In this document: one piece after another, positions 3,847 through 61,864 of the stretch | Numbering within the stretch: the first letter of the stretch is position 1 | Layout of the letters: each line of letters starts with the position of its first letter | Assembly (NCBI RefSeq): GCF_009806575.1 | Contig: NZ_CP047095.1 | Location: 1,678,001-1,742,000, forward strand | Length of the DNA stretch: 64,000 bases | Direction of reading: 5' to 3' | Source of the DNA: Rossellomorea marisflavi | GTDB taxonomy: Bacteria > Bacillota > Bacilli > Bacillales > Bacillaceae_B | Position numbers and translations under genes: made by a program | Notes under the pieces: model-generated | Database searches by the model: none | What the model saw: the letters and a program-made list of their open reading frames with translations, nothing else | What the model was told of the DNA's origin: nothing

Positions 3847-4059
3847 AAAATAATAGGGGACCTAAGAATACGGTCAAAACAACCTTCTATTGCATCATAA
3901 ATGGATAACAGGATTTCCTCAAGGGAAGTCTGGCGCCATCTGGCCCGATATGGAAGGATTACATACTGTCTTGTTCTGCTCTTCTATGGAATTTAACGAA
4001 AAAAATAATTGTAGGCATAAATTCATCCTGCTTTCATTCTTTTCATTTGAGCTTCTCTG

Positions 4060-4088
4060 TTGTAAAATGTAGAAAGTTGGTTTAATAT
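4060..4088 (+). promoter_or_regulatory. SigA-type promoter of nrdAB
   Basis: TTGTAA and TAATAT separated by 17 bases. Initiation would fall near 4095, inside the first NrdR-like box, with the riboswitch starting about 55 bases further on. Promoter inferred from spacing and location. Confidence 0.55.
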
Positions 4089-4093
4089 AAAAG

Positions 4094-4140
4094 ACGCAAC
4101 ATATTGTGTTTTTCTTAAATTTCATAACAATATATTGTTT
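4094..4140 (+). promoter_or_regulatory. Tandem NrdR boxes in the nrdAB promoter
   Basis: Two 16-bp sites, ACGCAACATATTGTGT (4094-4109) and TAACAATATATTGTTT (4125-4140), match the NrdR-box consensus as I recall it (ACACWATATMTTGTGT) at 14 and 13 of 16 positions. They are 15 bp apart, or 31 bp start to start. That is the phasing known for NrdR, the ATP/dATP-sensing repressor of ribonucleotide reductase genes. They overlap the predicted transcription start, a position suited to repression. Confidence 0.7.
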
Positions 4141-4150
4141 ATAACCTATG

Positions 4151-4345
4151 ATTGTGGTGTCGGATATCGACTTAAAAGGGAACCCGGTGAAATTCCGGGA
4201 CTGTCCCCGCAACTGTAAGTGCAAACGAAAGAAGGAATGCCACTGTCCATCGGACGGGAAGGCCTTCGAGTAGGCAAAAAGCACAAGTCAGGAGACCTGC
4301 CAGGATCAGTACGTGTTATCTTCTTCGGGAATTGGGAGGATAGGC
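4151..4345 (+). ncRNA. Adenosylcobalamin (B12) riboswitch upstream of nrdAB
   Basis: The leader carries hallmark segments of the cobalamin aptamer in order: AAAAGGGAACCCGGTGAAA, then GGGACTGTCCCCGCAACTGT, an intervening variable arm, and the conserved B12 box GTCAGGAGACCTGCC at about 4287-4301. A factor-independent terminator follows at 4395-4426, before the nrdA start at 4464. This suggests premature termination when coenzyme B12 is abundant. Riboswitches of this class usually repress B12 synthesis or transport, or B12-independent isozymes, and the last applies here. Confidence 0.93.
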
Positions 4346-4394
4346 GAGGATTACCCTTGGCGTAGTATGCCTTGTGAATCTATCGTTTATGACT

Positions 4395-4426
4395 GCCCAT
4401 CCTATGTGAATAGGATGGGCTTTTTT
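4395..4426 (+). terminator. Riboswitch terminator in the nrdA leader
   Basis: A perfect 10-bp stem (GCCCATCCTA / TAGGATGGGC), a six-base loop and six Ts, placed between the B12 aptamer and the nrdA ribosome binding site. It is the likely expression platform of the riboswitch. Confidence 0.88.
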
Positions 4427-4463
4427 CATCCTCTCCCGACTAATAAAAGGGAGGAATACTAGT

Positions 4464-6701
4464 ATGACATCAACCATTAACGGAACTACGGCATCCCATA
4501 GAGCGGAACGTCTATTAAGCGGGCTTCGGGAAAGCCATGAAGCATTGAATTGGGAGGAATACACTCAAAAGGTAGCCCTTTATACGGAAAATCAGCCAGG
4601 AGTGGAGGAAAAACAGCTTCTGCAGTTCTTGATCCTGTCTGCTGTTGAGCGTATTTCATCAAATGAACCTGATTGGACGTACGTGGCGGCCTCGCTATAT
4701 TTGAAGAATCTCTACGCCATCAGTGCAAACGCAAGAGGTATGGAGCCTTACAAAGGCTTATATGAGCTTATCGGGACACTGACCGAGAAGAATCTGTATT
4801 CTACGAAATTACTGGATACATACAGCAAAGAGGAGATGGATCATCTCGAAAGTCTCATCCGTCCTGAACGGGATGAATTGTTCACTTACATAGGAATCGT
4901 CACCCTGTCAGAGCGTTATCTCACCAAGGATCATTCAGGGGTTTTATTCGAACTGCCGCAAGAGAGATTCATGATCATCGCCATGACGCTCTTGATGAAT
5001 GAGCCGAAGGAGCACAGGCTTATGCTTGTAGAGGAAGCCTATTGGGCCCTGTCCAACTTGTATATGACTGTGGCAACCCCTACCTTCGCCAATGCCGGCA
5101 AGAGCTATGGACAGCTCTCAAGCTGCTTCATCGATACGGTGGAAGACGATTTGCGCAGCATCTACGACAGTAATACGGACGTTTCCACATTGAGCAAGAA
5201 CGGAGGCGGGCTCGGTATCTATATGGGGAAAGTAAGAAGTCGCGGAAGTGATATCAAAGGATTCAAGGGGGTCAGCTCCGGTGTAATCCCATGGATGAAG
5301 CAGCTGAACAATACGGCTGTCTCCGTGGATCAGCTCGGCCAGCGCCAAGGGGCCATCGCCGTCTATCTGGATGTGTGGCACAAAGATATCTTCTCCTTCC
5401 TCGATACGCGATTGAACAACGGAGATGAGCGCCTTCGTACCCATGACCTGTTCACGGGCGTCTGTCTCCCTGATCTCTTCATGGAGCAGGTCGAGAATCG
5501 CGGGGACTGGTATCTGTTCGATCCTCATGAAGTGAAGACCATCATGGGCTATGCCCTTGAAGACCACTTTGATGAGGAAAAAGGATCCGGTACGTTCCGC
5601 GATAAGTACTGGGAATGTGTAAATGAGCCGGCTTTGTCCAAAGAAATCATCCCGGCGATCGATATCTTTAAGCGGATCATGATTTCCCAGCTTGAAACGG
5701 GCACGCCTTACATGTTCTATCGCGACAGTGTGAATCGTCAAAATGCAAATAGTCATAAGGGCATGATCTACTGCAGTAACCTTTGCACGGAAATCGCCCA
5801 AAACATGAGCCCGACTGTGATGGAAGAAGAAGTGGTCAAGGACGGGAAGATCATCACCTACAAAAATCCGGGAGACTATGTGGTGTGCAATCTTGCGTCC
5901 GTTTCCCTTGCAAGGACGGTACGGGATGGTCAGATGGAACGTGTCGTCACGATCGGGGTGCGGCTCCTGGACAATGTCATTGATCTCAATGATATCCCGG
6001 TCCTGCAGGCCCAGTTGACGAATGCACGGTACAGGGGTATCGGACTCGGTACATTCGGATGGCATCATCTCCTTGCCCTTGAAGGAATCAAATGGGAGAG
6101 CGATGAGGCGGTATCGTACTGTGACCATTTATATGAAGACATCGCCTTTTACACAATCAAGGCGAGTCAGGAATTGGCAGAAGAAAAAGGGGCATACCCT
6201 TACTTCCCGGGATCCGCTTGGGAGACTGGCGCCTACTTCACGAATAAGGGGTACGAAGGCGAGAGATGGTTGGAGCTTAAAGAAAAAGTGGAAAGCGCCG
6301 GTATCCGCAATGGATACCTGATGGCTGTCGCCCCGAACTCTTCGACATCCATCATTGCCGGATCGACGGCAAGTATCGATCCACTGTTCAGACTCGAATA
6401 TTCCGAAGAAAAGAAAGACTATAAGATCCCGGTCACGGCACCTGACCTTTCACCGAAAACGACCTGGTACTATAAAACCGCTTATCATGTGGATCAGCAT
6501 TGGAGCATCCGCCAAAACAAGGCAAGGCAGCATCATATCGATCAGGGGATTTCCTTCAACCTGTATGTGAGGAATGACATCAAGGCGATTGATCTGCTCA
6601 ATCTCCACATGGACGCATGGAAATCAGATTTGAAAACGACCTATTATGTGCGGTCGACCTCTGTTGCAAACTTCGAAGAGTGCGAGAGTTGCCACAGCTA
6701 A
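4464..6701 (+). CDS. nrdA: Ribonucleoside-diphosphate reductase, class Ia alpha subunit
   Basis: A 745-residue catalytic subunit reducing ribonucleoside diphosphates to deoxy forms. Active-site residues are visible: Cys221 (SSCFIDT), the NLCTE motif with Cys441 as thiyl residue and Glu443, Cys475 (VVCNLAS), the radical-transfer pair Tyr727-Tyr728, and the C-terminal thiol-exchange pair CESC (740/743). The N-terminus goes almost directly into the RNR N domain (LNWEEYTQKVALYTENQP). The roughly 90-residue ATP-cone that carries the overall activity site in E. coli NrdA is therefore missing. Start ATG follows AAAAGGGAGGA. It forms an operon with nrdB under NrdR boxes and a B12 riboswitch. Confidence 0.95.
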   Translation: MTSTINGTTASHRAERLLSGLRESHEALNWEEYTQKVALYTENQPGVEEKQLLQFLILSAVERISSNEPDWTYVAASLYLKNLYAISANARGMEPYKGLYELIGTLTEKNLYSTKLLDTYSKEEMDHLESLIRPERDELFTYIGIVTLSERYLTKDHSGVLFELPQERFMIIAMTLLMNEPKEHRLMLVEEAYWALSNLYMTVATPTFANAGKSYGQLSSCFIDTVEDDLRSIYDSNTDVSTLSKNGGGLGIYMGKVRSRGSDIKGFKGVSSGVIPWMKQLNNTAVSVDQLGQRQGAIAVYLDVWHKDIFSFLDTRLNNGDERLRTHDLFTGVCLPDLFMEQVENRGDWYLFDPHEVKTIMGYALEDHFDEEKGSGTFRDKYWECVNEPALSKEIIPAIDIFKRIMISQLETGTPYMFYRDSVNRQNANSHKGMIYCSNLCTEIAQNMSPTVMEEEVVKDGKIITYKNPGDYVVCNLASVSLARTVRDGQMERVVTIGVRLLDNVIDLNDIPVLQAQLTNARYRGIGLGTFGWHHLLALEGIKWESDEAVSYCDHLYEDIAFYTIKASQELAEEKGAYPYFPGSAWETGAYFTNKGYEGERWLELKEKVESAGIRNGYLMAVAPNSSTSIIAGSTASIDPLFRLEYSEEKKDYKIPVTAPDLSPKTTWYYKTAYHVDQHWSIRQNKARQHHIDQGISFNLYVRNDIKAIDLLNLHMDAWKSDLKTTYYVRSTSVANFEECESCHS

Positions 6702-6719
6702 TAAGAAAGGATGGTAGAA

Positions 6720-7757
6720 ATGGAAGGATTGAAAAAACGGGTGCTCGTTGACGAAACGGCACCGAATAAATCAACGGGGATCGTCAACGGAGAAAGCTCG
6801 AACATCCTGAACTGGGATGACGTGCGGTATACGTGGGCGTACCCCAAGTATAAGCGCATGCTCGGGAACTTCTGGACGCCATTCGAGATCAATATGGCAA
6901 AAGACATCAAGCAGTTCCCTCAGCTGACAGAAAAAGAACAGGAGACGTTCCTGAAGATCATCGGACTTCTTGCCCTCCTTGACAGTATCCAGACGGACTA
7001 TGCGGGGAAAGTGGCAGATTACCTGACGGATTCGAGCGTGAATGCTCTCATGATCATCCTTGCCCAGCAGGAAGTGGTGCATAATCATTCCTATAGCTAT
7101 GTGCTTTCAAGCATTGTACCGAAGAGCGTGCAGGATGAGGTGTTTGATTACTGGAAGAATGAGCCGATCCTGATGAAGCGGAATGAATTCATCACCAATG
7201 GATACAAAGAATTCGTCGAGGCCCCGACGGTGGATAAACTGCTCAGGTCCATCATTTACGATGTAATCCTCGAAGGATTGTTCTTTTATTCCGGATTCGC
7301 CTTCTTCTATAATCTGGCAAGGAACCAGAAGATGGTTGCGACCAGCACGATGATCAATTACATCAACCGTGACGAACAGCTCCATGTCGGACTGTTTGAG
7401 AAGATCTTCAAGGAAGTGCTGGCAGAGAATCCTGAATACGATACGGATGAGCTCAAACGATACGGCACAGAAGCTTTCAAAGAAGCGGCGATCCTTGAGA
7501 TTGAATGGGGGAAAGAAATCATCGGAACCCATATGGATGGTCTCATGTTCAGTGACCTGGAGGCCTACATTAAGTTCATGGCAAATAAAAGGGCCAAACA
7601 GCTCGGGTTTGAAGAGCCATTTGAAGGGTTCAGATCCAACCCACTCAAATGGATCATCGCCTATCAGGAAGTCGATATGGGTAAAACCGATTTCTTTGAG
7701 CAAAAATCAAGACAATATACAAAAACATCCGACGCGAATGGGTTCGATGAACTCTGA
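6720..7757 (+). CDS. nrdB: Ribonucleoside-diphosphate reductase, class Ia beta subunit
   Basis: A 345-residue radical-generating subunit. Metal ligands are present in the usual order: Asp in LLDSIQ, Glu and His in QEVVHNH, Glu in ILEGLFF, and Glu and His in RDEQLH. The residue aligned with the E. coli Tyr122 radical is also Tyr (EVVHNHSY, four after the His). The ATG at 6720 is preferred to 6711 because the ribosome binding site lies just before 6711. It sits 18 bases after nrdA. No ATP-cone is fused to it either, so neither subunit carries an obvious activity-site domain. Confidence 0.95.
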   Translation: MEGLKKRVLVDETAPNKSTGIVNGESSNILNWDDVRYTWAYPKYKRMLGNFWTPFEINMAKDIKQFPQLTEKEQETFLKIIGLLALLDSIQTDYAGKVADYLTDSSVNALMIILAQQEVVHNHSYSYVLSSIVPKSVQDEVFDYWKNEPILMKRNEFITNGYKEFVEAPTVDKLLRSIIYDVILEGLFFYSGFAFFYNLARNQKMVATSTMINYINRDEQLHVGLFEKIFKEVLAENPEYDTDELKRYGTEAFKEAAILEIEWGKEIIGTHMDGLMFSDLEAYIKFMANKRAKQLGFEEPFEGFRSNPLKWIIAYQEVDMGKTDFFEQKSRQYTKTSDANGFDEL

Positions 7758-23333: not shown

Positions 23334-23399
23334 ATTTATTTCTTTACTTCCTGTGGGAAATAAGGTACGATTTAGGTATAAATTTAATCGTTTTCTACC

Positions 23400-23531
23400 T
23401 GTCAAAGGGGAGTAGCTATAGGTTAACACCTAAACAAAGTCGTCAGTTCATGGGTTATGCCCATCGGCTTTGTTGGCATATCGACTATGCTAAGCAAGAC
23501 CTTTGCCTTATTTAGGCAAGGGTCTTTTTCT
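23400..23531 (+). ncRNA. Mn2+-sensing yybP-ykoY riboswitch with terminator
   Basis: The conserved aptamer elements are present: AAAGGGGAGTAGC at 23404-23416, the central stem AAACAAAGTCGTCAG paired with CGGCTTTGTT, and GGCATATCGACTATGCTAAGC followed by AAGACCTTT. A terminator stem AGACCTTTGCC / GGCAAGGGTCT with T-run (23497-23531) overlaps the aptamer 3-prime end. The switch is expected to allow transcription of ykoY when manganese is high. Confidence 0.92.
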
Positions 23532-37954: not shown

Positions 37955-38150
37955 AGAAAAGCCTCTTCCTGTGTGAAAGAGGCTTGAAGAATACTTCGTC
38001 GCCTCTTATCTCTCAGAATGGAATCATTCTGTTGGAATTAGCACCGTGCCCTGGTCAGGCGCATCGATCTGCGCCCCGTCTTTCAACGGTATTACGGTCG
38101 GTTGCTGGGCTTCATAGGGCCAAATCCCTCAGCCAGCTCTTGATAAGAGT
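37955..38150 (-). ncRNA. SAM-I riboswitch (S-box) of mtnKA
   Basis: Read leftward, the leader has the S-box core elements: CTTATCAAGAGCTGGCTGAG, GGCCCTATGAAGCCC, AGCAACC and ACGGTGCTAATTCC, closed by GAGATAAGAG. The aptamer spans about 38002-38150. A terminator stem AAGCCTCTT / AAGAGGCTT (37955-37986) precedes mtnK. High S-adenosylmethionine is expected to stop transcription. The 356-base gap between mtnK and mtnU holds only this element. Confidence 0.95.
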
Positions 38151-40393: not shown

Positions 40394-40543
40394 ATTCTTA
40401 TCAAGAGCAGGCGGAGGGACTGGCCCGATGAAGCCCGGCAACCGACTCATTACGAGCACGGTGCTAATTCTTGCAGCAGAAGCTGGGAGATAAGATAGAG
40501 TGATGGAATAAAAGCCTCTTCTTATCAGAAGGGGCTTTTTTTA
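40394..40543 (+). ncRNA. SAM-I riboswitch (S-box) of mtnWXBD
   Basis: S-box elements in order: TTCTTATCAAGAGCAGGCGG, AGGGACTGGCCCGATGAAGCC, GGCAACC, ACGGTGCTAATTC and GGGAGATAAGA (aptamer about 40394-40497). A terminator stem AAAAGCCTCTT / AAGGGGCTTTT with T-run (40510-40543) follows before mtnW. It lies between mtnE and mtnW, so the last four genes respond to SAM separately from mtnE. Confidence 0.95.
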
Positions 40544-61713: not shown

Positions 61714-61795
61714 AAATCGGGGAAATCACTGGATTTTTTACTCGAAAAGCGTTATATTGTTTTAGGATAAAAGAAGAAAAATTGGGGCGTACCCG

Positions 61796-61864
61796 AGAGG
61801 TTCTAGCACAACCCTCTATAAAAAACTAAGGAAAACGGCATCCTTAGGTGTCGTTGTTTTTTTG
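61796..61864 (+). ncRNA. PreQ1-I riboswitch of the queCDE operon
   Basis: The compact class I preQ1 aptamer is clear: AGAGGTTCTAGCACAACCCTC, then an A-rich tail TATAAAAAACTAAGG that forms the pseudoknot (61796-61832). A hairpin of AACGGCATCC with GGTGTCGTT and a T-run (61833-61864) acts as terminator. High preQ1 should reduce expression of queuosine-precursor synthesis genes. Confidence 0.94.

Follow-up and report, generated by a model that had tools for sequence, protein, structure and literature searches.

The leader of the nrdAB operon in the window, by which we mean the whole 64-kb stretch of the Rossellomorea marisflavi genome analysed here, is a real, functionally coherent and well conserved regulatory region of a kind that is already known. 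Judged from its sequence, it very probably forms a two-level switch on a B12-independent ribonucleotide reductase, with the repressor NrdR acting at initiation of transcription and a cobalamin riboswitch acting at attenuation.

The riboswitch of the nrdAB leader

An earlier note on this DNA, made from its letters, had described ahead of nrdAB a SigA promoter, two NrdR-like boxes, a full adenosylcobalamin (AdoCbl) aptamer and an intrinsic terminator (Table 1). When the leader was run against the Rfam cobalamin model, the aptamer was borne out over its full length, matching RF00174 at model positions 1-189 of 189 with 124.4 bits (gathering score 31.5, E 8.7e-31). The terminator was found as well; a scan of both strands of 3950-4700 gave four terminator-like sites against 0.7 expected. 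A GGGAGG ribosome site lies at 4449-4454, some 23 bases past the terminator end at 4426.

Folding of the region downstream of the aptamer gives two mutually exclusive states. In the first a P13-like hairpin forms together with the terminator, and its loop (4326-4333) reads CGGGAATT, also written CGGGAAUU; a hairpin similar to P13 is seen in relatives. In the second, computed without the terminator's 3′ arm, an antiterminator forms between the terminator's 5′ arm and the loop and 3′ arm of P13. From these folds the switch is likely to be one of transcription attenuation, with the P13 hairpin set against the antiterminator. The P13-loop CGGG could also pair with UCCCCG at 4204-4209 as a kissing loop; an L5-L13 contact has been published for cobalamin riboswitches (PMC9600662; here and below we draw on parts of the cited papers).

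The two partners of the expression platform appear to co-vary. For 30 dissimilar loci drawn from those leaders in which a terminator was called (64 of 78), the pairing of each P13 segment with its own terminator had a mean of -9.8 kcal/mol compared with -8.6 kcal/mol for swapped partners, and one of 20,000 permutations was as good. Three loci (L048, L049 and L051) are clear examples in which both pairing sides are altered.

Conservation was measured on the 80 best of 393 related nrdA loci. RF00174 is found upstream of nrdA in 79 of these, the only miss (L079) having just 349 bases upstream; this count replaces the 77/80 given by a nine-base aptamer word. A genus-level set of 35 genomes, all from the genus of the window and overlapping the 80 loci, has the riboswitch at most 3 kb upstream of the nrdA match in every genome (counted for the riboswitch nearest nrdA). 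Being common to 79/80 loci, the arrangement appears to be old within the lineage. It is very improbable that the riboswitch is a relic or inactive, with an intact aptamer and nrdAB governed by NrdR only: fewer than half of the cobalamin riboswitch reporters in one B. subtilis study worked (38 of 86; PMC9600662), but here the aptamer is full length and kept in nearly all loci, and the expression-platform partners change together.

Table 1. Predicted features of the nrdAB leader and operon (window positions)
Feature	Position	Strand	Basis
Possible SigA promoter TTGTAA-17-TAATAT	4060..4088	+	8/12 to consensus; start site near 4095 inferred
NrdR-like box 1	4094..4109	.	14/16 to an assumed consensus
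NrdR-like box 2	4125..4140	.	13/16 to an assumed consensus; 15-bp gap after box 1
Cobalamin (AdoCbl) riboswitch aptamer, predicted	4138..4318	+	RF00174 covariance model match
P13-like hairpin	4317..4342	+	4317-4325 pairs 4334-4342; minimum-energy fold of 4305-4431
Antiterminator	4327..4403	+	outer helix 4327-4338 with 4396-4403; minimum-energy fold of 4305-4408
Intrinsic terminator and U tract	4395..4426	+	11-bp stem 4395-4420, 4-base loop, TTTTTT
nrdA, class I ribonucleotide reductase alpha	4464..6701	+	NCBIfam NF006665 1275.6 bits, cut-off 1057
nrdB, class I reductase beta	6711..7757	+	NCBIfam NF007184 411.4 bits, cut-off 310

NrdR and its boxes

The genome encodes one NrdR, as the earlier note had proposed looking for, which matches TIGR00244 with 229.1 bits and has both the zinc ribbon and the ATP-cone. 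Scored against an assumed box consensus, one not derived in this analysis, the pair of boxes in the nrdAB leader reaches a joint 27/32 with its starts 31 bp apart. In 2000 dinucleotide shuffles of 3951-4200 this score was never reached (mean 19, maximum 23), so that the pair noted earlier at 15 bp apart stands beyond chance, and on the strand scanned the window has no other pair that scores 25 or more at spacing 30-32. The spacer is inside the 14-17 bp range over which binding has been reported for NrdR from four bacteria of three phyla (PMC12051234).

With spacings of 28-35 allowed, the best pair fell at spacing 30-32 in all 78 leaders scored, window included, and it scored at least 24/32 in 69 of them (lowest leader 22). 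Upstream of nrdJ, the gene of the second reductase of this genome, there is a similar pair scoring 27/32 at spacing 33 and 25 at spacing 31, compared with a maximum of 23 in 1000 shuffles; RF00174 gave no cobalamin riboswitch at that locus (L013). That the boxes are chance AT-rich palindromes and not NrdR sites is slightly harder still to credit than an inactive riboswitch, since, although the consensus was assumed and box 2 is the poorer match, the shuffles, the uniqueness of the pair in the window, the shared spacing and the pair before nrdJ all speak for NrdR sites. On this pattern NrdR probably limits both reductases, and B12 probably decides which is made.

The reductases of the genome and their relatives

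In the genome searched (4.55 Mb, two contigs) the reductase barrel family has two matches, nrdA and nrdJ. The nrdA and nrdB reading frames are open and, by their family-model scores, encode class I alpha and beta chains that are not class Ib: NrdA gives 417.9 bits with the class Ib model TIGR04170 (cut-off 750) and NrdB 146 bits with TIGR04171 (cut-off 355). Both are also below the cut-offs of the models named class 1a, NF006578 and NF006576. NrdB retains an ExxHxxxY motif, which we take to carry the radical tyrosine. Its open reading frame (ORF) opens at 6711, and a start at 6720 fits the ribosome site better. NrdA aligns to E. coli R1 from its residue 42 (residue 48 of R1) onwards, and the length of its N-terminal region (window 4464-4880) leaves room for an ATP-cone. 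The Pfam ATP-cone, which NrdR matches, gave no match in NrdA or NrdJ up to E 0.5; given the alignment to R1, NrdA may retain a degenerate ATP-cone.

The class II nrdJ that had been predicted elsewhere in the genome is present, encoding a protein of 853 residues that matches the vitamin B12-dependent reductase model NF005991 with 1701.4 bits (cut-off 854). A second, lower-scoring reductase chain is found in all 80 genomes of the conservation sample (31/31 and 49/49). In many genomes, for example G006, G009, G044, G194 and G195, the match to this second reductase is split or has stops, as if interrupted by inteins or introns.

The association between riboswitch and second reductase was then followed through an even sample of the order comprising 110 genomes, of which 94 have a class I chain by score among the matches listed. 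In 10 of these the class I gene is the single reductase match, and no cobalamin riboswitch lies next to it; four of the 10 genomes lack such a riboswitch altogether and the remaining six have theirs elsewhere. At least 39 of the 84 genomes with further reductase matches have a riboswitch beside a reductase, a count resting on 47 listed riboswitches that share a contig with a reductase under strict filters, and two more have one at about 3.5 kb. Fisher's p of 0.005 is indicative only, as the count of 39 is a lower bound and class I was assigned by score. A riboswitch accompanying a second reductase, and none beside a single one, is as isozyme switching predicts, with modest negatives.

Four contigs of this sample (G132:C25, G153:C62, G130:C1 and G088:C2) carry cobalamin riboswitches 0.7 to 3.6 kb upstream of lower-scoring class I chains, which are perhaps NrdE.

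The B12 regulon

There are five cobalamin riboswitches in the genome, that of nrdAB included. One precedes metE (MetE 1058 bits), and MetH is present. Hence MetE and NrdAB, both B12-independent isozymes, carry a riboswitch and both B12-dependent partners are encoded; metE and metH show the same logic as nrdAB and nrdJ, which supports isozyme switching. A further riboswitch stands, by position, ahead of a BtuF-like binding protein that is accompanied by a permease-like ORF and an ATPase fused to CbiZ.

At L012 (3243-4791, minus strand) a riboswitch stands before an ORF resembling cobalamin adenosyltransferase (PF01923), itself followed by a second BtuF-like protein, an arrangement in which the ligand-making step itself may be under feedback. 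At L009 (949-4885, minus strand) the genes following a riboswitch encode a protein that has a cell-wall anchor and matches the prenyltransferase toroid weakly, as well as a DUF4430 protein and a CbiQ-like one; this set is a possible surface system for corrinoid capture and uptake.

CbiC of corrin synthesis was not found in the genome; CbiZ, BtuF-like proteins and the adenosyltransferase-like ORF were. The absence of CbiC suggests that B12 is scavenged rather than made de novo, and one absent gene is no proof of auxotrophy.

Other riboswitches in the window comprise a manganese (yybP-ykoY), two S-adenosylmethionine and one PreQ1 riboswitch, located at 23395-23491, 38003-38149, 40395-40496 and 61791-61835.

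Discussion

The sequences show the parts of the leader, the presence of nrdJ and nrdR, the conservation and the co-variation; binding of the ligand, binding of NrdR and the sign and size of the effects are what we infer. In the model, NrdR, presumably loaded with dATP, would repress the nrdAB promoter at the step of initiation, and probably that of nrdJ too. Those nrdAB transcripts that have started would then come under the cobalamin riboswitch. When AdoCbl is bound, the aptamer would hold the P13 hairpin via its loop, the antiterminator would be blocked and the terminator would end transcription ahead of nrdA. When AdoCbl is absent, the loop and 3′ arm of P13 would base-pair with CCCAUCCU in the terminator, which would thereby be broken, and nrdAB would be made. 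When B12 is present the B12-dependent NrdJ would take over.

Several points weigh against this model. The promoter at 4060-4088 is the weakest part of the leader: it is missing from the list given by the promoter scan, itself near chance (three found, 1.5 expected), and an alternative candidate at 4040-4068, matching at 9/12 and listed by the scan, is possible. Because the plain consensus scan is near chance, support for the promoter comes from its position in relatives only, where TTGTAA-17-TATGAT (six relatives) and TTGTAA-17-TATCAT (two) end 7-8 bases before box 1. The SigA promoter of the earlier note therefore holds as to position in some relatives, and is left doubtful by its 8/12 consensus match and its absence from the scan. 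In the co-variation test the 14 leaders without a called terminator were unused and the permutations ignore the relatedness of the loci. The window ranks only 3/29, with three other terminator arms pairing better with its P13 segment than its own does; several close relatives, whose segments are nearly alike, come midway or below, and last is L074, where the terminator call looks doubtful. It is thus the more distant loci that carry the co-variation. As to the second reductase, NrdJ is named by a family model in the window's genome only, while in relatives it is read as NrdJ from score and extent, many matches being split. Finally, the negative set is just 10 genomes, and in one genome (G079), with three reductase matches, the strict filters gave no riboswitch.

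At 13 of the 80 loci (L028, L029-L034, L036, L038, L039 and L041-L043) an ORF lies between the riboswitch or terminator and nrdA, and a leader terminator was called in all 13. Cobalamin riboswitches that act on translation exist (PMC8390425), but masking of the ribosome site in place of termination is the least probable of the alternatives that we considered, as the U-tract terminator ends before the ribosome site, the switch pairings fall on the terminator, and these 13 loci keep a called terminator with another ORF before nrdA. The intervening ORF of L028 (2518-2985) is a match to PF03061, the thioesterase superfamily, and those of the 12 further loci start with alike sequences. More tentatively than the attenuation model itself, and at rather less than even chances, the stacked NrdR and riboswitch leader may be an old co-evolving module of the class I reductases of Bacillaceae, common to most genera sampled, one that has taken in a thioesterase-like gene at these 13 loci.

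Closely similar systems are in print. In Bacillus methanolicus MGA3, putative cobalamin riboswitches have been reported upstream of nrdAB and metE from RNA-seq data (PMC4342826), so that this organism shares both AdoCbl-nrdAB and metE riboswitches with the genome of the window; NrdR boxes, switching structures and nrdJ, noted here, were not found in the parts of that account that we used. In Priestia megaterium, metE and nrdEF are under cobalamin riboswitches and NrdJ and MetH are said to be present (PMC8390425). Its B12-independent isozymes are thus under riboswitches as here, but the operon is called nrdEF, and P. megaterium makes B12, whereas CbiC was not found in the genome of the window. 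Reporters of P. megaterium metE and metH obey the same B12 logic (PMC9600662). Given the published B. methanolicus nrdAB and P. megaterium nrdEF, the present case is not the first in Bacillaceae. Isozyme switching, the central proposal of the earlier note, is well supported by the sequence comparisons and has precedent in this family; the convergence with Streptomyces that the note suggested is a weaker part of its proposal.

Outside the family, Propionibacterium acnes has an NrdR box over the nrdAB promoter together with a cobalamin riboswitch, and nrdRJ without a riboswitch; in that study NrdJ was proposed to provide a large share of the activity in that case (PMC3848588). P. acnes differs in being an actinobacterium, in having one box on nrdAB as against two here and in carrying a riboswitch on nrdDG as well (PMC3848588). 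For Streptomyces coelicolor nrdABS, control of a class Ia reductase by coenzyme B12 via a riboswitch, as proposed here, is known to us from a title cited in PMC4342826. In Desulfovibrio and Desulfuromonas, nrdDG is under B12-elements in genomes with nrdJ, a logic credited there to earlier work (PMC545781); the proposal is the same, but the enzyme is of class III and the organisms are delta-proteobacteria, and stacking with NrdR was not found in the parts of that account to hand. A riboswitch survey, again known in part, has a category for isozymes of B12-dependent enzymes. Neither a co-varying antiterminator nor a stack of two boxes and a riboswitch in Bacillaceae was found in the portion of the open literature searched, and we make no claim of novelty.

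The nrdAB leader offers a clean case of cofactor-driven isozyme choice, in which a single leader combines a deoxynucleoside triphosphate (dNTP) sensor that acts when transcription initiates with a cofactor sensor that acts when it is attenuated. If the reading of the 13 loci is true, B12 and dNTPs would, through the thioesterase-like gene ahead of nrdA, also control an enzyme outside nucleotide metabolism. Its conservation and the linked changes in its expression platform make the nrdAB leader a good system for studying how a cell splits its dNTP supply between two reductases, and it is suited to asking whether a lineage that loses nrdJ loses the riboswitch too.

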